In this document: positions 35,525-63,777 of the stretch, one piece after another | Numbering within the stretch: the first letter of the stretch is position 1 | Layout of the letters: each line of letters begins with the position of its first letter | From: Maritalea myrionectae DSM 19524 | Lineage (GTDB): Bacteria; Pseudomonadota; Alphaproteobacteria; Rhizobiales; Devosiaceae | Direction of reading: 5' to 3' | Length of the DNA: 64,000 bases | Assembly (NCBI RefSeq): GCF_000423365.1 | Contig: NZ_AUHV01000003.1 | Span: forward strand, 62,001 to 126,000 | The notes under the pieces: generated by a model | What the model was told of the DNA's origin: nothing | What the model saw: only the letters and a program-made list of their open reading frames with translations | The model's database searches: none | Program-made: the position numbers and the translations under genes

Positions 35525-35568
35525 ACCTACCTCGCTTTAATGCTAGGCAGATATTGCCGGGCAAATGG

Positions 35569-35583
35569 TTAACGCGGCGTTAA
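35569..35583 (-). promoter_or_regulatory. CtrA box of the flgB operon
   Basis: Perfect TTAA-N7-TTAA (35569-35572 and 35580-35583), 45-59 bp before the flgB start. The site reads the same on both strands and could also serve fliO, 175 bp to the right. Confidence 0.7.
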
Positions 35584-43957: not shown

Positions 43958-44695
43958 ATGGAAAACGCACAGCTCATCGGCCTATCAAGACAAATCGCAT
44001 TGCGGCGTCAAATGGACGTTGTGGCCAACAATATGGCCAACTTGAACACAGCCGGTTACAAAAATATGGACATCCTTTTCGAAGAGTATGTCATGCCGGT
44101 CGCCCGTCATAAAGATTTCGAAATGATGGACCAGCCGCTTTCTTATACGCAGGATTGGGCCACCATTCATGATTTTGCTTCCGGCAGCATCACGCAAACG
44201 GGCAACCCACTAGACATCGCCATCCAAGGCGACGGCTTCTTCGTGATCGACACACCAGGTGGCGAACGCTACACCCGCAACGGCGCCTTTCAACTGAATG
44301 AGCGCGGCGAGCTGGTTACGTCTGAAGGCTACAACGTGCTCGCAGATGGTGGTTTTTTAACCTTCAACCCGGGCGAAACCGGCATCACCATCACCGAAGA
44401 CGGACGTGTCAGTTCTTCTGCTGGCGATAAGGGCATCTTGCGGGTCGCAGAGTTTGAAAATCCTCAAAGCCTGCGCCGCGAAGGCGACACCATGTTTTCG
44501 GGCGAAAATCCCATTTTTGATAATCCATCCCGTTTTGTGCAAATGGCCATCGAACGCTCCAACGTTTCCGGCGTCTCCGAGATGACAGAAATGATCCGCG
44601 TCACCAAGGCCTATGAATCCATCTCGGGCATGCAACAACGCCAGGACGAGTTGCGGCGCACCGCCATTCGTAAGCTCGGCGACACTAAAGCTTAA
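43958..44695 (+). CDS. flgF: flagellar basal-body rod protein FlgF
   Basis: A 245-residue proximal-rod protein: LIGLSRQIALRRQMDVVANNMANLNTAGYKNMD at the N-terminus, the beta-rich middle PLDIAIQGDGFFVIDTPGGERYTRNGAFQLNERGELVTSEGY, and the C-terminal EMTEMIRVTKAYESISGMQQRQDELRR. First gene of flgF-flgG-flgA-flgH with a sigma-54 type promoter. Confidence 0.94.
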   Translation: MENAQLIGLSRQIALRRQMDVVANNMANLNTAGYKNMDILFEEYVMPVARHKDFEMMDQPLSYTQDWATIHDFASGSITQTGNPLDIAIQGDGFFVIDTPGGERYTRNGAFQLNERGELVTSEGYNVLADGGFLTFNPGETGITITEDGRVSSSAGDKGILRVAEFENPQSLRREGDTMFSGENPIFDNPSRFVQMAIERSNVSGVSEMTEMIRVTKAYESISGMQQRQDELRRTAIRKLGDTKA

Positions 44696-54934: not shown

Positions 54935-54951
54935 CGGGCCAGGAAGGCCCG
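54935..54951 (+). promoter_or_regulatory. flagellin 1 leader hairpin, AGGAA loop
   Basis: CGGGCC-AGGAA-GGCCCG, perfect 6-bp stem plus an outer G-U pair, 30 nt before the ATG. Same loop as in the leaders of flagellins 2 and 5. Confidence 0.6.
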
Positions 54952-54981
54952 TTTGTAAGCCAGAATGGAGTATTTAGTATC

Positions 54982-56088
54982 ATGGCTATTCAACTATCAG
55001 CTGCCGTACGTCAGAACCTCACCGCCCTTCAAGGCACTGCTGATCTTCTCAGCAAAACACAGAACCGTCTTTCAACAGGTTTGAAAGTGAACTCTGCGTT
55101 GGACAACCCAGGTTCTTTCTTCACAGCCCAATCATTGAACTCACGCGCTTCTGACCTTTCATCTTTGTTGGATGACCAAGGCCAGGCTGTTCAAACTCTT
55201 AAAGCTGCCGACGAAGGTATTCAGTCTATCACCAAGCTCGCAGAAGCGGCTAAGGCGAAAGCAAACCAAGCACTGCAGTCTTCTTCAACAGCTGACCGTC
55301 GTAAGTTTGCTGGCGAATATAACGAACTTCTCAACCAAATCGAAACACTTGCCAAAGATAGCGGCTACTCAGGTAAAAACCTGTTGGCTGGTACAGGCAA
55401 CGATTTGTCGGTGGTATTTAACGAAGATGGCACATCTAAGTTGGACATCTCTGCGGTTGACTACACAGACACTTCTGGCGCACTTGGTCTGTCAGATCTG
55501 ACTGTCGGTACAAGCGGCACATTGACCATCGCTGAATCAGCTCTTGAAGCTGGTGACGAAGATGGCGATACATTGACAGTTACTGTTGGCGGTTCTTCAG
55601 TGGGCTCTATCGCTTATGATTCAGGCACCACTGCTGAAGACGTTGTAACAGCGCTAAACGCAATTGACGGTGTAACCGCATCAACAGACGGTACAGACAT
55701 CACTGTCACATCAGAAAATGGCAACATTGTCATTGACGATAGCGACACAACAGCTGATCTGGCTACACAAACTGGCACTGGCTACGTGGCAGGTTCGTTT
55801 GACTCAGATGCAACAATCAACGCAACTTTGGACTCGTTGACTTCTGCCCTCGGCTCATTGCGGTCACAGGCTTCAACCTTCGGTACAAACCTGACAGTTG
55901 TTGAAAACCGTCAAGATTTTACCAAGTCAATGATCAACACATTGCAAGAAGGTTCTGGCAAGCTGACTTTGGCAGATACCAACGAAGAAGGTGCGAACTT
56001 GCTAGCGTTGCAAACACGTCAGACACTGGCATCAACTTCATTGTCATTCGCTTCTCAGGCAGACCAAAACGTATTGCGTTTGCTGTAA
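54982..56088 (+). CDS. fliC: flagellin (paralogue 1)
   Basis: A 368-residue flagellin. N-terminal D0/D1: IQLSAAVRQNLTALQGTADLLSKTQNRLSTGLKVNSALDNP; C-terminal LRSQASTFGTNLTVVENRQDFTKSMINTLQEGSGKLTLADTNEEGANLLALQTRQTLASTSLSFASQADQNVLRLL. The variable centre (~160-275) is an acidic, Thr-rich repeat-like domain shared with paralogues 2 and 4. Each flagellin gene has its own upstream box and terminator, so they are expressed singly. Confidence 0.95.
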   Translation: MAIQLSAAVRQNLTALQGTADLLSKTQNRLSTGLKVNSALDNPGSFFTAQSLNSRASDLSSLLDDQGQAVQTLKAADEGIQSITKLAEAAKAKANQALQSSSTADRRKFAGEYNELLNQIETLAKDSGYSGKNLLAGTGNDLSVVFNEDGTSKLDISAVDYTDTSGALGLSDLTVGTSGTLTIAESALEAGDEDGDTLTVTVGGSSVGSIAYDSGTTAEDVVTALNAIDGVTASTDGTDITVTSENGNIVIDDSDTTADLATQTGTGYVAGSFDSDATINATLDSLTSALGSLRSQASTFGTNLTVVENRQDFTKSMINTLQEGSGKLTLADTNEEGANLLALQTRQTLASTSLSFASQADQNVLRLL

Positions 56089-56111
56089 GCCGAAACGACA
56101 AGACTATTTTG

Positions 56112-56139
56112 AAGGCGGGCTCCGGTCCGCCTTTTTTTA
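56112..56139 (+). terminator. terminator of flagellin 1
   Basis: AAGGCGG / CCGCCTT stem (56112-56118, 56127-56133), T-run. Confidence 0.9.
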
Positions 56140-56155
56140 TATTCTGATTCTGGCA

Positions 56156-56170
56156 TTAATTCTTCATTAG
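56156..56170 (+). promoter_or_regulatory. CtrA-like box, flagellin 2
   Basis: TTAA-N7-TTAG, one mismatch, 64-78 bp before the start. Confidence 0.4.
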
Positions 56171-56193
56171 GCATATTCATTCATTTTCTAGTT

Positions 56194-56208
56194 GTTCCAG
56201 GAAGGAAC
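56194..56208 (+). promoter_or_regulatory. flagellin 2 leader hairpin, AGGAA loop
   Basis: GTTCC-AGGAA-GGAAC, perfect 5-bp stem of different sequence from that in flagellin 1; nested in outer arms TTCTAG/CTAGAA (56186-56191, 56217-56222). Confidence 0.6.
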
Positions 56209-56233
56209 TCGAGTACCTAGAAAAGGAAGTAAA

Positions 56234-57343
56234 ATGAGTCAAATTCAACTCTCATCAGCCGTGCGGCAGAACCTACTGTCGTTGCAAAACACAGCTGATC
56301 TCATGTCAAAAACGCAGAACCGCTTGGCCACTGGCCTCAAGGTCAACTCGGCCCTTGATAATCCCGGTTCTTTCTTCACTGCCTCCTCATTGAACAACCG
56401 TGCGGGTGACCTCACGAACCTGTTGGACGATATGGGACAGTCTGTTCAAACTTTGAAAGCCGCTGACGAAGGTATCCAGTCGATCACCAAGTTGGTTGAA
56501 GCTGCCAAAGGCAAAGCAAACCAAGCGCTTCAGTCTTCTTCAACTGCTGACCGTCGTAAGTTTGCTGGCGAGTACAATGAACTCTTGTCTCAAATTGAAG
56601 ATTTGGCAAAAGATGCCGGCTACTCAGGCAAAAACCTGTTGGCGGGTACCGGCAACGACTTGTCAGTGCTGTTCAACGAAGATGGCACTTCATCTTTGAG
56701 CGTTTCAGCCGTCGACTACACCGACACCTCTGGCACACTTGGTCTGTCAGATCTGACTGTCGGTACAAGCGGCACATTGACCATCGCTGAATCAGCTCTT
56801 GAAGCTGGTGACGAAGATGGCGATACATTGACAGTTACTGTAGGCGGTTCATCAGTTGGCTCTATCGCTTATGATGATGGCACCACTGCTGAAGACGTTG
56901 TAACAGCGCTGAACGCAATTGATGGCGTAACTGCATCAACAGATGGCACAGACATCACCGTTACTTCAGAAAATGGCAACATTGTCATTGACGATAGTGA
57001 CACAACTGCGGATCTGGCCACACAAACAGGTACTGGCTATGTAGCGGGTTCGTTTGACGCAGACAGTGATATCAACACTTCGCTGACTTCATTGAACTCT
57101 GCATTGAACACATTGCGGTCGCAGGCCTCAACCTTCGGTACAAACCTGACAGTTGTTGAAAACCGTCAAAACTTTACAACTCGTTTGATCAACACTTTGG
57201 AAGAAGGTGCAGGCAAATTGACTTTGGCCGACACCAACGAAGAAGGTGCGAACTTGCTGGCGTTGCAAACACGTCAACAGCTCTCCTCTACTTCGCTTTC
57301 ATTCGCCTCTCAGGCGGATCAGAACGTGTTGCGTTTGTTCTAA
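56234..57343 (+). CDS. fliC: flagellin (paralogue 2)
   Basis: A 369-residue flagellin, close to paralogue 1 over its whole length, with 106 identical bases in the variable domain (56736-56841 against 55481-55586). Start ATG 56234 (MSQIQLSSAVRQNLLSLQ) follows AAAAGGAAG; the frame is open upstream to 56192, but that part covers the leader hairpin. D0/D1 termini are complete, ending ASQADQNVLRLF. Confidence 0.95.
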   Translation: MSQIQLSSAVRQNLLSLQNTADLMSKTQNRLATGLKVNSALDNPGSFFTASSLNNRAGDLTNLLDDMGQSVQTLKAADEGIQSITKLVEAAKGKANQALQSSSTADRRKFAGEYNELLSQIEDLAKDAGYSGKNLLAGTGNDLSVLFNEDGTSSLSVSAVDYTDTSGTLGLSDLTVGTSGTLTIAESALEAGDEDGDTLTVTVGGSSVGSIAYDDGTTAEDVVTALNAIDGVTASTDGTDITVTSENGNIVIDDSDTTADLATQTGTGYVAGSFDADSDINTSLTSLNSALNTLRSQASTFGTNLTVVENRQNFTTRLINTLEEGAGKLTLADTNEEGANLLALQTRQQLSSTSLSFASQADQNVLRLF

Positions 57344-57377
57344 GGATAAAGAATTTAGTATTGCGTACTTTATCGCA

Positions 57378-57414
57378 ATGGGCGGTGTGCGGATCATGCA
57401 CCGCCCATTTTTTT
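57378..57414 (+). terminator. terminator of flagellin 2
   Basis: ATGGGCGGTG / CACCGCCCAT stem (57378-57387, 57399-57408) and T-run. Confidence 0.92.
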
Positions 57415-57442
57415 GATTATTTTCAGATTCTTATCAAACTCA

Positions 57443-57457
57443 TTAACATCTGATTAA
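57443..57457 (+). promoter_or_regulatory. CtrA-type box, flagellin 3 (perfect)
   Basis: TTAA-N7-TTAA (57443-57446, 57454-57457), 63-77 bp before the start. A short inverted repeat CCTTA/TAAGG follows (57459-57474). Confidence 0.6.
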
Positions 57458-57478
57458 CCCTTAACTTGCTAAGGATTA

Positions 57479-57497
57479 GGTGCCTAGGATAGGCACC
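57479..57497 (+). promoter_or_regulatory. flagellin 3 leader hairpin, AGGAT loop
   Basis: GGTGCCT-AGGAT-AGGCACC, perfect 7-bp stem, 22 nt before the ATG. Confidence 0.6.
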
Positions 57498-57519
57498 AGT
57501 TTAAACCAGAAGTTAGTTT

Positions 57520-58680
57520 ATGAGCATACAGCTATCCTCCGCGGTCCGGCAGAATCTCCTGTCACTTCAATCCACCGCAGACATGATGTCCAAAACGCAA
57601 AATCGCCTCGCCACTGGCTTGAAGGTGAATTCTGCGCTGGACAATCCCAGTTCTTTCTTCACAGCATCAGCTCTCAATAATAGATCGAATGATCTTGGCG
57701 GGCTTTTGGATGATATGGGACAATCCATTCAAACACTAAAAGCGGCTGATGAAGGCATTAAGTCCATCACTAAACTGGTGGAGGCAGCAAAAGGCAAAGC
57801 CAATCAAGCCTTACAATCGTCAAGCACAGCTGATCGCTCAAAATTTGCCACAGAATATAATGAGTTATTGGGGCAAATTGAGCAACTAGCCAAGGACGCA
57901 GGCTATAGCGGCAAGAACCTTCTTGCAGGTACAGGCAATGACCTTGACGTTATCTTTAACGAAGATGGTACCAGCAAACTTGGCGTTAGCGCGGTAGACT
58001 ACACTGATACCTCCGCTTCATTGGGTTTGAGTTCTCTAGCAACGACAATCGCCGGCACGCCAGGGTCATTTACCATCAGCGATCAGGATTTGTATGACGG
58101 CTTTAATGGTGACGCCGGGGATACATTTATTATCGAAGATGGAGACGGCACGACTCTTATCGCAGCCGGAGATCCTGGTGACGGAACCCTCACCTACTCC
58201 AACCAGATCGCCGATGAAATTAACGCTGCGGGCGTTCCCGGTCTGTCAGCAACATTTGTCCCCGGTCCGTTGACCGGATCGCTGACAGTTACATATACTG
58301 AAGGCAACGTTTCAATTGATGACGCCGATTCAACTAATGATCTCGCTACGACGACTTCATCAAATTTTGTTGAGAGTGTTGTTGGTGGTTTTGAGACCGA
58401 TGAGGCCATCAACGCCGAACTGGATAAACTCAACACAGCACTCAACACATTGCGTTCACAAGCATCGACATTCGGCACAAACCTGACAGTTGTTGAGAAT
58501 CGCCAGAACTTCACAAAGTCATTAATCAACACCTTAGAAGAAGGTGCGGGCAAGCTGACCCTTGCAGATACAAACGAAGAAGGTGCGAACTTGCTGGCGT
58601 TGCAAACGCGGCAACAGCTTTCGTCGACCTCCCTCTCCTTCGCCTCACAAGCAGATCAAAACGTCCTCCGACTCTTCTAA
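57520..58680 (+). CDS. fliC: flagellin (paralogue 3, divergent centre)
   Basis: A 386-residue flagellin, the longest of the five. D0/D1 ends match the others (MSIQLSSAVRQNLLSLQSTADMMSKTQNRLATGLKVNSALDNPSSFFTA; ASQADQNVLRLF), but the centre (~165-290: SFTISDQDLYDGFNGDAGDTFIIEDGDGTTLIAAG...) shares only its general layout with the rest. Codon choice here is closer to the bulk genome than in paralogues 1 and 2, which suggests lower expression (inference). Confidence 0.95.
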   Translation: MSIQLSSAVRQNLLSLQSTADMMSKTQNRLATGLKVNSALDNPSSFFTASALNNRSNDLGGLLDDMGQSIQTLKAADEGIKSITKLVEAAKGKANQALQSSSTADRSKFATEYNELLGQIEQLAKDAGYSGKNLLAGTGNDLDVIFNEDGTSKLGVSAVDYTDTSASLGLSSLATTIAGTPGSFTISDQDLYDGFNGDAGDTFIIEDGDGTTLIAAGDPGDGTLTYSNQIADEINAAGVPGLSATFVPGPLTGSLTVTYTEGNVSIDDADSTNDLATTTSSNFVESVVGGFETDEAINAELDKLNTALNTLRSQASTFGTNLTVVENRQNFTKSLINTLEEGAGKLTLADTNEEGANLLALQTRQQLSSTSLSFASQADQNVLRLF

Positions 58681-58705
58681 CACATTATAAAATATTACTT
58701 TTTTC

Positions 58706-58733
58706 AAGGCGAACTTCGGTTCGCCTTTTTTAT
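58706..58733 (+). terminator. terminator of flagellin 3
   Basis: AAGGCGAAC-TTCG-GTTCGCCTT with T-run; a TTCG tetraloop. Confidence 0.93.
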
Positions 58734-58787
58734 TGCGTTTTATTAATTTTCGCATTTTGCAACAAATTCCGCATTTTGCAACGCGCA

Positions 58788-58802
58788 TTAAACTTCGATT
58801 AA
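58788..58802 (+). promoter_or_regulatory. CtrA-type box, flagellin 4 (perfect)
   Basis: TTAA-N7-TTAA (58788-58791, 58799-58802), 71-85 bp before the start. Confidence 0.6.
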
Positions 58803-58872
58803 CCATCCTCATTCATGATCATAAGTGCCCCAGAATCGGGCCTAGAAACCATGAAGGAATAGAACTTTGACA

Positions 58873-59979
58873 ATGATCCATTTGTCCGCGGCAGTGCGGC
58901 AAAACCTCTTATCACTGCAAGGCACAGCCGACTTGATGTCCAAAACGCAAAATCGTTTGGCCACCGGGCTCAAGGTCAACTCGGCTCTCGACAACCCCAA
59001 CTCATTCTTTACAGCGTCCGCGCTGAACAACCGCGCTTCTGACTTGAGCAGCCTGCTTGACGACATGGGTCAAGGTGTTCAGACGTTGAAAGCGGCCGAC
59101 GATGGCATTCAAGCCATCACCAAGCTCGTGGAAGCCGCCAAAGGTAAAGCCAACCAGGCGCTTCAATCCAACAAGGTCGCTGACCGCCGTCGGTTTGCGC
59201 AGGAATATAACGATCTGCTGACCCAGATCGAAGATCTCGCCAAAGACGCTGGCTACAAAGGCAAGAACCTTCTTGCGGGTACGGGCAACGACCTGTCAGT
59301 TATCTTTAATGAAGATGGCACCTCATCCGTTACGATCGATGCTGTAGACTACACAGACACTTCCGGTGCTTTGGGTTTAGCAGACTTGACAGTAGGCACA
59401 AGCGGCACCCTGACCATCTCTGAAGCGGCTCTCGAAGCTGGTGACGAATCGAACGATACGCTAACCGTAACCGTCGGCGGCTCAAATGTAGCGACAATTG
59501 ACTATGGCGTCGGCACGACTTCAGAAGACGTAATCACTGCGTTGAATGCTATCGAAGGCATTACCGCATCAACCGATGGCACTGACATCACCGTTACCTC
59601 TGACAATGGCAATATTGTTATCGACGATAGCGACACCACTGCTGATTTGGCGACCCAAACTGGCACCGGCTATGTGGAGGGTACGTTCGATACCGATGTT
59701 TCAATCAGCGCCTCGCTCGAAACATTGAACGGCGCATTGAGCACCCTGCGCTCACAAGCATCCACATTCGGTACCAACCTCACCGTGGTTGAAAACCGTC
59801 AGAACTTCACAAAGCGTTTGATCAACACATTGGAAGAAGGTGCGGGCAAGCTGACCCTTGCAGATACAAACGAAGAAGGTGCGAACTTGCTGGCGTTGCA
59901 AACACGGCAACAATTGGCATCCACCTCACTCTCTTTCGCCTCGCAGGCGGATCAAGCGGTGCTGCGGCTTTTCGGTTAA
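58873..59979 (+). CDS. fliC: flagellin (paralogue 4)
   Basis: A 368-residue flagellin with complete D0/D1 ends and a central domain like that of paralogues 1 and 2 (LTVGTSGTLTISEAALEAGDESNDTLTVTVGGS). Start ATG 58873 is preferred to a TTG two codons earlier. Its leader lacks the AGGAA-loop hairpin found in the other four; GCCC/GGGC (58827-58841) forms a weaker stem with loop CAGAATC, and GAAGGAATAG is the ribosome site. Confidence 0.95.
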   Translation: MIHLSAAVRQNLLSLQGTADLMSKTQNRLATGLKVNSALDNPNSFFTASALNNRASDLSSLLDDMGQGVQTLKAADDGIQAITKLVEAAKGKANQALQSNKVADRRRFAQEYNDLLTQIEDLAKDAGYKGKNLLAGTGNDLSVIFNEDGTSSVTIDAVDYTDTSGALGLADLTVGTSGTLTISEAALEAGDESNDTLTVTVGGSNVATIDYGVGTTSEDVITALNAIEGITASTDGTDITVTSDNGNIVIDDSDTTADLATQTGTGYVEGTFDTDVSISASLETLNGALSTLRSQASTFGTNLTVVENRQNFTKRLINTLEEGAGKLTLADTNEEGANLLALQTRQQLASTSLSFASQADQAVLRLFG

Positions 59980-60021
59980 GCCCCAACACAAAACTATGGC
60001 TCATAGAGCTATTTCTTCAAG

Positions 60022-60054
60022 AAAGACGTCGATTCTATTCGGCGTCTTTTTTTT
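60022..60054 (+). terminator. terminator of flagellin 4
   Basis: AAAGACG / CGTCTTT stem (60022-60028, 60043-60049), extended inward by three pairs; T-run. Confidence 0.9.
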
Positions 60055-60139
60055 GCTTAAACTCACTAGGCACTTTTTTCCGCCTAATATGTGGAAAATC
60101 AACCCATCTGACCCAATTTGAGCCATTCTGTTAATATGC

Positions 60140-60162
60140 GTTAACCTTTCAGTAAGGTTAAC
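60140..60162 (+). promoter_or_regulatory. palindrome and CtrA-like box, flagellin 5
   Basis: GTTAACCTT (60140-60148) and AAGGTTAAC (60154-60162) are perfect arms around TCAGT. TTAA-N7-GTAA (60141-60155), one mismatch from a CtrA box, lies within it, 71-85 bp before the start. Confidence 0.45.
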
Positions 60163-60202
60163 AATTCATTGTCACGAAGAATCGTGGCAATACTCTATTA
60201 AC

Positions 60203-60221
60203 AACTCCAGGAAGGATGGTT
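60203..60221 (+). promoter_or_regulatory. flagellin 5 leader hairpin, AGGAA loop
   Basis: TCC-AGGAA-GGA (60206-60216) with outer AAC/GTT after a 2-nt bulge. CCAGGAAGG is identical to flagellins 1 and 2; here the loop overlaps the ribosome site of the gene, 9 nt from ATG 60226. Confidence 0.5.
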
Positions 60222-60225
60222 CGCG

Positions 60226-61335
60226 ATGAAAGATGTAACCCTCTCGCAATCTGTACGGCAAAACCTTTTGTCATTGCAGAGCACAGCAGACATGATGGCG
60301 CGGACACAAAACCGACTAGCCACGGGCCTGAAGGTCAACTCGGCGCTTGATAATCCCAACTCATTCTTTACATCGCAAGGGTTGAACAGCCGGGCCAACG
60401 ATTTGGCAAGCCTGCTCGATTCTATGGGCCAAGGCGTGCAAACGCTTAAGGCGGCCGATACAGGTATCACCAATGTGGTGAACTTGGTGGAAGCTGCAAA
60501 AGCCAAGGCGAACCAGGCCAACCAAACAAACAAGATCGAAGATCGCCGCGTTTTTGCGAACGAATACAATAGCTTGTTGAAACAAATCGAAGATTTGGCA
60601 CGCGATGCTGGCTATAATGGCAAGAACCTGTTGGCAGGCACCGGTAACGATCTGGCCGTTGTCTTTAATGAAGACAGCACTTCAAAGCTTATCATCGAAG
60701 CCATTGATCTTACAGATACATCTACCTTTTTGGGCCTCAATGATGTCACCACAGGCACTTCGTCCACGGGAACTGTAACTGAAGCCAACCTTATCGCAGG
60801 CCGTGAAGCCGGGGATGAATTGACGCTTACGATTGGCTCCGACACCTACACAATCGAATATGGCGCGACCACCACCGCCGCTGATATCATCAACGCGCTG
60901 GACGCCATTCCAGATGTTTCCGCCTCCTCCGATGGCACAACTGTGACGATCACGACAGCGGCTGGCAATTTCACATTGGACGACACCAACGCCACAAGTG
61001 ATATGACCACCGTCACCGGCACAGGCTATGTCGCCGGGTCGTTCGACACAGAAACCTCAGTGAATGCCGTTCTCAATGACATTACGGAATCACTGAATTT
61101 GCTGCGCGATCAGGCCTCGACATTCGGCACCAACCTCACCGTGGTCGAAAACCGCACCAATTTCACCAAACAAATGATTTCGACATTGGCGAATGGGGCG
61201 GATATGCTGACCTTGGCAGATACCAATGAAGAAGGGGCAAACCTTTTGGCTTTGCAAACACGGCAGCAATTGTCATCCACCGCCCTTTCCATGGCATCAC
61301 AAGCAGATCAGAACGTCTTAAGACTCTTCCAGTAA
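60226..61335 (+). CDS. fliC: flagellin (paralogue 5)
   Basis: A 369-residue flagellin, the most divergent in the terminal domains: N-terminal MKDVTLSQSVRQNLLSLQSTADMMARTQNRLATGLKVNSALDNPNSFFTSQGLNSRANDLASLLDSMG, and MISTLANGADMLTLADTNEEGANLLALQTRQQLSSTALSMASQADQNVLRLFQ at the end. The centre (TGTSSTGTVTEANLIAGREAGDELTLTIGSDTYTIEYG) is related to but distinct from paralogues 1, 2 and 4. No terminator was seen before flbT, 41 nt downstream, so it may be co-transcribed with flbT-flaF. Confidence 0.95.
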   Translation: MKDVTLSQSVRQNLLSLQSTADMMARTQNRLATGLKVNSALDNPNSFFTSQGLNSRANDLASLLDSMGQGVQTLKAADTGITNVVNLVEAAKAKANQANQTNKIEDRRVFANEYNSLLKQIEDLARDAGYNGKNLLAGTGNDLAVVFNEDSTSKLIIEAIDLTDTSTFLGLNDVTTGTSSTGTVTEANLIAGREAGDELTLTIGSDTYTIEYGATTTAADIINALDAIPDVSASSDGTTVTITTAAGNFTLDDTNATSDMTTVTGTGYVAGSFDTETSVNAVLNDITESLNLLRDQASTFGTNLTVVENRTNFTKQMISTLANGADMLTLADTNEEGANLLALQTRQQLSSTALSMASQADQNVLRLFQ

Positions 61336-61376: not shown

Positions 61377-61805
61377 ATGGCCCTAAAAGTTGAACTAAAG
61401 CCAAAGGAACGGCTCATTGTGGGTGATTGCGTGATCACCAATTCCGATCAACGCACACGCCTCTATGTCTCCGGCAGATCACCGATTCTGCGGGAAAAGG
61501 ACATTATGCGCGTTGAGGATGCGTCCTCTCCGGCCAAAAGAGTCTATTTCGCCGTACAATTAATGTATCTCGATGATGATGTTGATAAAGTGCAGGAAGA
61601 ATACTTCAGCCTTGTCAATGACTTAGTAAAAGCGGCTCCGTCAACGACCCCAATTGTTGATGAAATTAATAATGAGATATTAACTGGTTCGCTTTATAAA
61701 GCTCTGAAGAAAGCCAAAAAACTGATCGAATACGAACGGGAGCTGATCGGCGATGCAACAACAGGCGGCTTTGGCGTACCAACAAACAGCCAAGAAAACA
61801 GCTAG
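61377..61805 (+). CDS. flbT: flagellin post-transcriptional regulator FlbT
   Basis: A 142-residue FlbT, normal length: LKVELKPKERLIVGDCVITNSDQRTRLYVSGRSPILREKDIM and the helical C-terminus EEYFSLVNDLVKAAPSTTPIVDEINNEILTGSLYKALKKAKKLIEYERELIG. In Caulobacter FlbT binds the 5' leader of flagellin mRNA and lowers its translation until hook assembly is done. The leader hairpins before the upstream flagellins are candidate targets. Overlaps flaF by 53 nt. Confidence 0.92.
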   Translation: MALKVELKPKERLIVGDCVITNSDQRTRLYVSGRSPILREKDIMRVEDASSPAKRVYFAVQLMYLDDDVDKVQEEYFSLVNDLVKAAPSTTPIVDEINNEILTGSLYKALKKAKKLIEYERELIGDATTGGFGVPTNSQENS

Positions 61806-62163
61806 TCCACGCGAACTGGAGGCATCATTGCTCTCCAAGTCGGCAGCTCAATTGCAGCGCATTCGCGATGATTGGGACAATAAAAAGCCAGAACTTGATG
61901 GCGCACTGACCTACAATCGCAAATTGTGGACTGTGTTTATGACATCTGTCACAAGCGACGAGAATCCGCTGCCGACTTTGATCAAGCAAAATGTCGCCAA
62001 TTTGGGCATTTTCGTCATGAATCACACGATCTCGACCTTGGCCAATCCTGAGGCACGCCGCCTGGATGTGCTGATCAACATCAACAAAGAGCTGGCCGCT
62101 GGTTTGCGCACGCAGCAAAATCAGGATGAAGAAGCACCGAAAGGCGCTCACCCAGCTCTGTAG
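61753..62163 (+). CDS. flaF: flagellin secretion/biosynthesis regulator FlaF
   Basis: A 136-residue FlaF: ALAYQQTAKKTASPRELEASLLSKSAAQLQRIRDDW, then NRKLWTVFMTSVTSDENPLPTLIKQNVANLGIFVMNHTISTLANPEARRLDVLININKELAAGL. In Caulobacter FlaF is needed for flagellin translation and secretion and opposes FlbT. ATG 61753 lies well inside flbT, a 53-nt overlap that suggests coupled synthesis of the two antagonists. Confidence 0.9.
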   Translation: MQQQAALAYQQTAKKTASPRELEASLLSKSAAQLQRIRDDWDNKKPELDGALTYNRKLWTVFMTSVTSDENPLPTLIKQNVANLGIFVMNHTISTLANPEARRLDVLININKELAAGLRTQQNQDEEAPKGAHPAL

Positions 62164-62277: not shown

Positions 62278-63777
62278 CTAGCTCATATAATTGACCATCG
62301 ATAGACGGTTTACGATTGAAGCTGTTTGATAGCTTGCTTCCATTCGCGTTTTAAGCTGCAAGATTTGCATGGCGACCTCTTCCATTGAGATCCCCTCAAT
62401 ATCGGCGAGCATCGTCTCAAGTGCCGCTTTTTGCTGGCCGTGGCGTTCAGAAATGCGCGAGGCCGACGTTTTGGCAAGGCCCAATTCCATTTGAACAACC
62501 TCAATGGAACCAGCCACACCATTATTGGTTTCTGCCAACCGCTCCCGCACAACACCATTCATCGCCTCATAGCGTTCACTCGCTTTGGGGTCAGATGGCG
62601 AATAACCGTCCGCAGCAAACACGGCCAGTGAGCGCATCAACTCGGCAAAACCACTCTCATTGGCTTGCACGCCATAATTCACCCGCGTGCTTTCATCAAC
62701 GCGCGCTTGCGACGTTAAGCGAGGGTTGGTGGAGCTTTCGCCCTTATACCAAATTACCGTGTCGGCATCCGTCGCGGCAACCAATGCGGTGGCGCTATCA
62801 TAGGGAGGACCATCCACCCGCATGGACGCTTCGCCATTGGAATTGAAAAAACTATCCGCCGCGGCATATGAGGATGCTGCGGTCAGTTTGGTTTGCGCAA
62901 AATGTCCCAGGCGCTCATTGAGCGAGGCTTGCATGTTCGCTGCCGTATCCGCAATCGAGCCACCAATCTGAAATTCATCGGGACTTTGCGGTGTACCGGC
63001 CACAGCTTTCAATTCAAGCGTAAAAGTGGTGCCATCCGGCAAATCCAGGCCGATCATAATGCGTTCATTGTCGGCGGGTTGGCTGGTAAACTCTATGGTC
63101 GCACTTGGCGGCGCACCTGCTGGGCCCGTCAAAGTCGTTGAGCTTCCGTCCGAGGAAAGGCTATCTAGCTTAAATCCAAATGGATGGGTGCCATCCTCGG
63201 CGATCGTGACAGTCGTGCCGGCCACGCCATTGGTCAATCGGCCCAGCCCCGACGCGCCCAAGTCCGCTTCATTGCGCTGCGAAACAATGGTGCGAAAACC
63301 ATCCTTGCCGTCGGCGCCATTCATCAATTCGTCAAAACTGGCAACAGGGTCTTCTTCCGTTGCGTTGCCCGCCAAAAGGTGACGCCCATTCAGATCCGAG
63401 TTCAACAAGTCGATGACTTCTTTCATCCGGTTTTCCGCAAGATATTGCGCCGCCGTCATGTTCACGCCGTTGATTTCAAACGATCCCTGTTGGGCCGACG
63501 AGCGTGTTTCATTCTCAATTTGGTCGATGCGGCTGATCACATCATCCAAATAGTTCAAGCGAATATCTACATTGTCCAAATTGTGTTGATAGGTTTCCAA
63601 GGCACTCGTGCGGGCGCGCAAGGTCATATCAACCACTCGATCAGCCCCGAGTTCCGAAAGGGTTTGCGCCCGTTCACCAGTGGCCAATTGTTGGTTCAGC
63701 TTGTCCAGCTCATTGCGCATATCCGAGATCGCGCGATAGCTAAACTTCGCAGGAAACAGTGAGTTATTTACAATCAT
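62278..63777 (-). CDS. flgL: flagellar hook-filament junction protein FlgL
   Basis: A 499-residue flagellin-domain protein of the FlgL family. N-terminal FSYRAISDMRNELDKLNQQLATGERAQTLSELGADRVVDMTLRARTSALETYQHNLDNVDIRL, and the C-terminal SIEVVQMELGLAKTSASRISERHGQQKAALETMLADIEGISMEEVAMQILQLKTRMEASYQTASIVNRLSMVNYM. It is longer than enterobacterial FlgL (about 317) because of a large inserted middle domain, common in alphaproteobacteria. Downstream of flgK on the minus strand. Confidence 0.87.
   Translation of the reverse strand: MIVNNSLFPAKFSYRAISDMRNELDKLNQQLATGERAQTLSELGADRVVDMTLRARTSALETYQHNLDNVDIRLNYLDDVISRIDQIENETRSSAQQGSFEINGVNMTAAQYLAENRMKEVIDLLNSDLNGRHLLAGNATEEDPVASFDELMNGADGKDGFRTIVSQRNEADLGASGLGRLTNGVAGTTVTIAEDGTHPFGFKLDSLSSDGSSTTLTGPAGAPPSATIEFTSQPADNERIMIGLDLPDGTTFTLELKAVAGTPQSPDEFQIGGSIADTAANMQASLNERLGHFAQTKLTAASSYAAADSFFNSNGEASMRVDGPPYDSATALVAATDADTVIWYKGESSTNPRLTSQARVDESTRVNYGVQANESGFAELMRSLAVFAADGYSPSDPKASERYEAMNGVVRERLAETNNGVAGSIEVVQMELGLAKTSASRISERHGQQKAALETMLADIEGISMEEVAMQILQLKTRMEASYQTASIVNRLSMVNYMS

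Follow-up and report, generated by a model that had tools for sequence, protein, structure and literature searches.

A conserved hairpin element in the flagellin mRNA leaders of Maritalea and its relatives, with FlbT as the candidate reader

Hairpins in the leaders of the five Maritalea flagellin genes

In this work, we analysed the leaders of five flagellin genes that stand in tandem, followed by flbT and flaF, in a 64,000-nucleotide (nt) stretch of DNA from Maritalea myrionectae DSM 19524 (Devosiaceae, Hyphomicrobiales; contig NZ_AUHV01000003.1, positions 62,001 to 126,000; hereafter the window). The main finding is that these leaders, like many of those of relatives, contain hairpins which are real and formed as RNA, and that the most likely reader of their AG[A/G]AN loop (AGRAN below; R, A or G; N, any base) is FlbT, which probably binds them. 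As far as our searches go, the element is undescribed within the literature searched, and a layout of two sites, an upstream hairpin (HP1) and a Shine-Dalgarno (SD)-proximal hairpin (HP2), recurs in many relatives.

The initial annotation, made from the sequence alone, had claimed hairpins with AGGAA or AGGAT loops for flagellins 1, 2, 3 and 5, and all four were found just where it had placed them (these and all further hairpins lie on the plus strand). In the leader fold of flagellin 1, HP1 is CGGGCC-AGGAA-GGCCCG (54935..54951), and its orthologues in relatives read GGGCC-AGAAA-GGCCC and GTGAGCC-AGAAA-GGCTCAC. The folds of flagellins 2 and 3 gave GTTCC-AGGAA-GGAAC (56194..56208; 36.7 bits with the covariance model described below, of which it is a training sequence) and GGTGCCT-AGGAT-AGGCACC (57479..57497; 20.2 bits). 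Flagellin 4 had been thought to lack the hairpin, which proved wrong: its leader folds into GCCC-CAGAATC-GGGC at 58827..58841 (12.2 bits, E 0.18), and the counterpart in Maritalea porphyrae is ggcccc-AGAAT-ggggtt (loci L094 and L095). For flagellin 5, the hairpin noticed earlier, TCC-AGGAA-GGA (60206..60216), does exist but occupies the SD position, and a separate HP1 upstream of it, ATTGTCACGA-AGAA-TCGTGGCAAT (60168..60191, from the leader fold), had been overlooked. An AGRA-type loop stands on the upstream hairpin in 5/5 Maritalea leaders.

The SD-proximal class as such had also escaped the initial annotation, as in flagellin 2, where HP2 is CCT-AGAAA-AGG (56216..56226; −0.2 kcal/mol). In this hairpin and in HP2 of flagellin 5 (−1.0 kcal/mol; AGCC-AGGAT-GGTT in M. 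porphyrae), the 3′ arm lies in the SD region. The sequence of the flagellin 1 leader offers a possible, weak 2-bp HP2, CCAGAATGG (54960..54968), and RNAfold of that piece alone gave no structure. Among 5000 dinucleotide-shuffled sets of the five 80-nt leaders, 0 equalled the real set in total stem length at AGGAW loops (W, A or T).

Pairing is kept across relatives

To follow the element beyond Maritalea, we collected 262 leaders from 61 loci and from stretches of 40 further relatives, mostly Hyphomicrobiales with some Parvibaculum-like or unplaced loci, and retained 186 after removing those more than 75% identical. In an open count of loops with no preset motif, AGGAA ranked first (49 leaders vs 0.05 shuffled) and AGAA second (25 vs 0.55). 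An AGRAN loop on at least 4 Watson-Crick pairs was present in 86/186 leaders vs 0.88 in shuffles. At the third loop position the relatives have either G or A; among 105 C-G-closed pentaloops with at least 4 pairs, 59 were AGGAN and 21 AGAAN, such that AGAAN makes up 21/80 of the C-G-closed AGRAN pentaloops and GGA is not invariant. The AGGAA/AGGAT loop describes the hairpins for which it was named, whereas as a general rule it gives way to AG[A/G]AN, which is not GGA-specific.

Because circularity had to be avoided, we also took AGRAN words at −52..−33 relative to the start codon blindly, with or without flanking pairs (159 sites). Pairs 1 to 6 around them were Watson-Crick in 55–82% of cases vs 27–63% expected from the base composition of the columns, each of the six pair types occurred, and control words at −200..−70 paired at or below expectation. 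Furthermore, 140 sites were aligned, of which 138 were picked by script regardless of pairing and 2 were placed by hand: 78.6% of cells were paired vs 54.2% shuffled, a value that was also 78.6% without the two hand-placed rows. The covariation score was 0.660 vs 0.231 shuffled (0/500 shuffles), and at most 0.226 when the partners were slid; the shuffle test is inflated by relatedness, which the slide control retains. Of the five measures applied to this alignment, the number of pairs altered in both partners was not discriminating (7 vs 6.2 shuffled, reached in 190/500), and for the other four no shuffle of 500 reached the real value. The earlier argument that stems of differing sequence which stay paired indicate an RNA structure is thus strongly supported by covariation, and the alignment of relatives' leaders, which had been suggested as its check, showed that the pairing is kept.

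Short inverted repeats 5′ of genes could also be DNA operator sites. Here the arms vary freely with pairing kept, the asymmetric loop alone is conserved and the position is fixed relative to the start codon, so that we regard operators as highly improbable.

Two sites at fixed distances from the start codon

Across the 186 leaders, HP1 is centred on −42 (stem of at least 4 in 87 vs 0.8 shuffled) and HP2 on about −16 (stem of at least 3 in 91 vs 4.1 shuffled), the 3′ arm of HP2 containing SD-region purines of the relatives' leaders. Both occur together in 58/186 leaders, and in 34/58 the loop-to-loop spacing is 26–28 nt. Since the HP2 stem is pinned by the SD sequence, the case for HP2 is one of enrichment, not of covariation.

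This position of the 3′ arm allows for a mechanism with no protein at all, in which HP2 itself hides the SD sequence as an RNA thermometer or standby site and HP1 is a spacer or a stability element. HP2 is weak in flagellins 2 and 5, as the energies above show, and plain sequestration would not require the same AGRA loop twice while the HP1 stem varies; a protein-free mechanism therefore seems to us distinctly unlikely.

We then built a covariance model, R1, covering both hairpins and searched 36 genomes with it, scoring up to 150 first-look candidates per genome; as its alignment was chosen for stems, the R1 pair counts are circular and were not used. There were 13 matches at E<0.001, and 13/13 lay at flagellin leaders (by coordinates; L302 by reading), 5 of the 13 being training sequences, while at E 0.01 to 1 flagellin leaders were mixed with other places. 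Among the candidates scored, R1 gave no match in G040, G042, G044, G046 and G050, and G042 has FlbT. In the window, ranks 1–4 were flagellin leaders (the top three alone at E<0.05, flagellin 2 being a training sequence), and flagellin 5 came sixth, behind a place at 44670. The concentration of strong matches on flagellin leaders suggests a dedicated flagellar regulator.

Searches against Rfam yielded 8 matches at E<=5 in window positions 50–64 kb, all under the gathering scores, and none at the gathering score in the loci of 8 relatives. The flg-Rhizobiales RNA (RF01736) was considered as a candidate and rejected: no match at E<=0.001 was found in the own genome (24/139 first-look candidates scored), and none in 50–64 kb. 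It resembles our element as a structured RNA that is conserved in this order and classed as cis-regulatory; in contrast to our element, it spans 141 positions and has GGGA loops in its printed consensus.

CsrA is absent and FlbT widespread in the order

The initial annotation had pointed to CsrA/RsmA as a binder of the GGA loop. CsrA targets typically have two hairpins, one of them near the SD sequence, and the AGGA loops and the two-hairpin layout seen here do resemble them. The search for PF02599 gave 0 matches in the own genome and in 0/199 genomes of the order (own included), with positive controls detected, which excludes CsrA as the binder here, short of a homologue beyond the reach of PF02599; moreover, AGAA is accepted in the above-mentioned 21/80 loops. 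Binding by CsrA is the least probable of the explanations considered, and we practically discount it. FliW was likewise not found in the own genome, while FlbT is present in 138/199 order genomes and in 114/122 of those with flagellin (E<=1e-10). A flagellin with no FlbT match was observed in G046, G093, G129, G397 and G424, all of one genus.

Across 240 class-wide genomes, CsrA was found in 48 and FlbT in 81, and both together in 2 vs 16.2 expected (Fisher 9e-8; the counts and the test ignore phylogeny). FliW occurred in 41/240, of which 37 had CsrA and 0 FlbT, and flagellin was present in 42/48 CsrA-bearing genomes. The sole 2/240 genomes with both CsrA and FlbT are G239 and G359, neither with FliW. 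We read this distribution as CsrA-FliW replaced by FlbT, or the reverse.

We further compared flagellin leaders outside the group, namely 48 non-redundant leaders from 38 genomes with CsrA and no FlbT, and 86 leaders from 42 genomes of other orders with FlbT. In the former, AGRA hairpins were AGGA in 11/11 cases upstream and in 7/7 near the SD sequence; in the latter, they were AGAA in 11/11 cases upstream, and among 20 cases near the SD sequence 17 were AGAA and 3 AGGA. The loop differs with the regulator, and the open pentaloop count gives a looser picture. In the CsrA-bearing set (L258–L297), A-N-G-N-A accounted for 21/40 C-G-closed pentaloops with at least 4 pairs; its forms AGGAA, AGGTA, AAGAA, ATGTA and ATGAA are wider than GGA. 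In FlbT-bearing leaders of other orders (e.g. L178 and L195), we also observed AAAAC/AAAAT loops closed by C-G, sometimes in tandem. Taken together, the near-exclusive occurrence of CsrA-FliW and FlbT and the similar leader hairpins on both sides suggest that the class swapped its flagellin brakes while the layout of the RNA target was kept.

A model with FlbT as the reader

FlbT binds the flagellin 5′ untranslated region (UTR) in Caulobacter, according to PMC3930126 and PMC4347634, the latter a review in which the action of FlbT on flagellin mRNA is listed as unresolved. In our model, the flagellin mRNA leader would be a protein-binding element where HP1, at about −42, presents the AG[A/G]AN loop on a freely varying stem, and a weaker HP2, found at about −16 in roughly half of the leaders from relatives, would repeat the loop, its 3′ arm containing SD purines. 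Probably together with a flagellin co-repressor, FlbT would dock on the strong hairpin and keep the weak one closed, so that ribosome start is blocked; once the hook-basal body is complete, FlaF-guided export would remove the co-repressor, thereby permitting flagellin synthesis. That FlbT is the binder and makes use of the two loops is what we infer, as is the direction of the effect, and Brucella FlbT has been described as an activator. The defined twin-hairpin element with its near-invariant loop makes the RNA target of FlbT testable with short RNAs.

The missing hairpin from which flagellin 4 had earlier been suggested to escape this control does not hold for Maritalea, where every one of the five leaders has an upstream hairpin, and yet a hairpin-free flagellin does exist in related clusters. 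In L035–L074, related loci mostly of Roseibium and Labrenzia, with some of Pannonibacter, Methylobrevis and Siculibacillus and some from unplaced genomes, both hairpins are missing from the flagellin closest to flbT in 33/34 loci. Of the 85 remaining flagellins, the upstream hairpin is present in 80 and the downstream one in 75, and 1 has neither, a pattern that was noticed post hoc. In Caulobacter, as described in PMC7591256 and PMC9812332, FlbT represses with a specialised flagellin, which is removed by FlaF-aided export. The L035–L074 pattern fits this published co-repressor model, and the hairpin-free flagellin is a candidate for the co-repressor that is made first.

A number of observations weigh against the FlbT model. 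The folding energies of the five Maritalea leaders are modest (z −1.45 to −2.26), with 4 to 16 of 200 shuffles folding at least as well as the real ones. Within the window, flagellins 2 and 5 each have an HP2 of 3 bp and flagellin 1 has one of 2 bp, that of flagellins 3 and 4 is unconvincing, and in the whole-leader minimum-energy fold of flagellin 2 the HP2 stretch pairs with an upstream TTTTCTAG. Among the 186 leaders, 46 have no AGRAN word at −56..−32 and 99 show no stem of at least 4 in the HP1 zone, and unselected words at −25..−10 show excess pairing at pairs 2 and 3 only. In FlbT-bearing leaders of other orders, AGRA hairpins are a minority (11 upstream and 20 downstream of 86), and 30 C-G-closed pentaloops with at least 4 pairs comprise 12 AAAAN vs 3 AGAAN. 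Over all 70 loci, some of them duplicated, the flagellin nearest flbT has HP1 in 19 and HP2 in 27, and both are missing from it in 39; of 156 further flagellins, 126 have HP1, 109 have HP2 and 21 have neither of them. The hairpin-free rule is limited to a clade because it fails over this whole set. To these points must be added the neglect of phylogeny in the co-occurrence data and the 8/122 flagellin-bearing order genomes without an FlbT match.

The last point, as well as the inferential status of FlbT as the binder, leaves room for another protein, such as a ribonuclease or a flagellar RNA-binding protein, that binds the hairpins and sets mRNA stability or processing. The clustering of strong matches on flagellin leaders, the mutual exclusion of CsrA/FliW and FlbT and the loop base that differs accordingly all argue against it, so that such a protein appears unlikely to us, and FlbT remains the probable reader.

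FlbT and CsrA as possible relatives

On visual inspection, FlbT looks similar to CsrA at its start, and FlbT Arg39, whose conservation is at least 90% among 70 sequences, aligns with CsrA Arg44, an RNA-contacting residue. With hhalign in local mode, 153 FlbT sequences vs CsrA gave a probability of 57% and a score of 24.4 over 52 co-linear columns (38 by default); the null maxima were 17.75 (150 column-permuted profiles) and 19.67 (93 unrelated windows, i.e. 94 minus FlbT itself). The probability was 45% with three PDB CsrA rows added, 3% (score 15.6) in global mode and 21% with a narrow FlbT alignment, which came out in a different register and lends no support to CsrA kinship. The AlphaFold model of the FlbT monomer has five strands, then helices. 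The FlbT profile found no CsrA at E<=10 among PDB sequences, and a single-sequence search gave no hit. Foldseek and VIA listed no CsrA: for the whole model, Foldseek returned no match at E<=0.001 and the VIA rows were mostly helical stretches, and the N-terminal model (mean pLDDT, a per-residue model confidence, 77.4) likewise gave no match at E<=0.001, results which exclude nothing.

Kinship between FlbT and CsrA, as judged from these alignments, is therefore only a lead. A wider scenario, possible but rather doubtful, is that FlbT is a diverged CsrA-superfamily protein with a CsrA-like five-strand domain and a helical bundle, which would have replaced CsrA-FliW in much of Alphaproteobacteria and inherited the two-hairpin leader, the loop drifting from AGGA to AGRA or A-rich forms, while in some clusters a hairpin-free flagellin would be made first as an export-sensing co-repressor.

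Relation to known systems

The FlbT control known from Caulobacter crescentus (Anderson and Gober 2000; Ardissone 2020), as described in PMC3930126, PMC7591256 and PMC9812332, shares with Maritalea the flbT-flaF pair, the flagellin 5′ leader as a target and the coupling to export; in the accessible open literature on it we found no description of the AGRAN twin hairpin, our comparison covering leaders other than that of Caulobacter. The CsrA-FliW systems of Bacillus and Campylobacter likewise combine a flagellin leader, an upstream hairpin with an SD-proximal site, and export coupling. Unlike them, the order of Maritalea is without CsrA, its own genome is without FliW, and the loop is not limited to GGA. 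FlaF/FlbT has already been proposed as an analogue of CsrA-FliW (PMC4894983). The hairpin is not described in the accessible portions of the open literature on FlbT, FlaF, CsrA/FliW and Rhizobiales RNA motifs, including PMC2864571, PMC3930126, PMC4347634, PMC4894983, PMC7591256 and PMC9812332; the primary FlbT papers lay outside this search and may hold part of it.

The flagellin locus and its neighbourhood

The own genome has five flagellin matches, and this locus has five flagellin genes on the plus strand: flagellin 1 at 54982..56088 (open reading frame list and Pfam search), flagellin 2 at 56234..57343 (listed from an upstream TTG; ATG 56234 used), flagellin 3 at 57520..58680, flagellin 4 at 58873..59979 (listed from TTG 58867; ATG 58873 used) and flagellin 5 at 60226..61335, the last four taken from the same list. 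The nearest named loci to flagellin 2 are those of M. mobilis (93% identity) and M. mediterranea (92%). The gene for the best candidate reader of the hairpins, flbT (61377..61805, plus strand; Pfam FlbT E 4.5e-43), starts 41 bp 3′ of the last flagellin gene, just downstream as had been noticed, and is followed by flaF (61753..62163, plus strand; Pfam FlaF E 9.4e-34).

The sequence TTAA-N7-TTAACC, which we take to be the CtrA box, has 3 exact copies in the window vs 0.09 expected. Two of these CtrA-box-like sites lie on the plus strand 5′ of flagellin 3 (57443..57459) and of flagellin 4 (58788..58804), so that the promoters would sit upstream of the hairpins; the third is elsewhere, at 35567–35583 on the minus strand. 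Convergent to flaF, positions 62278–63777 (minus strand) encode a protein of 499 aa, probably the hook-filament junction protein FlgL, whose flagellin N-terminal match is weak (E 1.1e-6).

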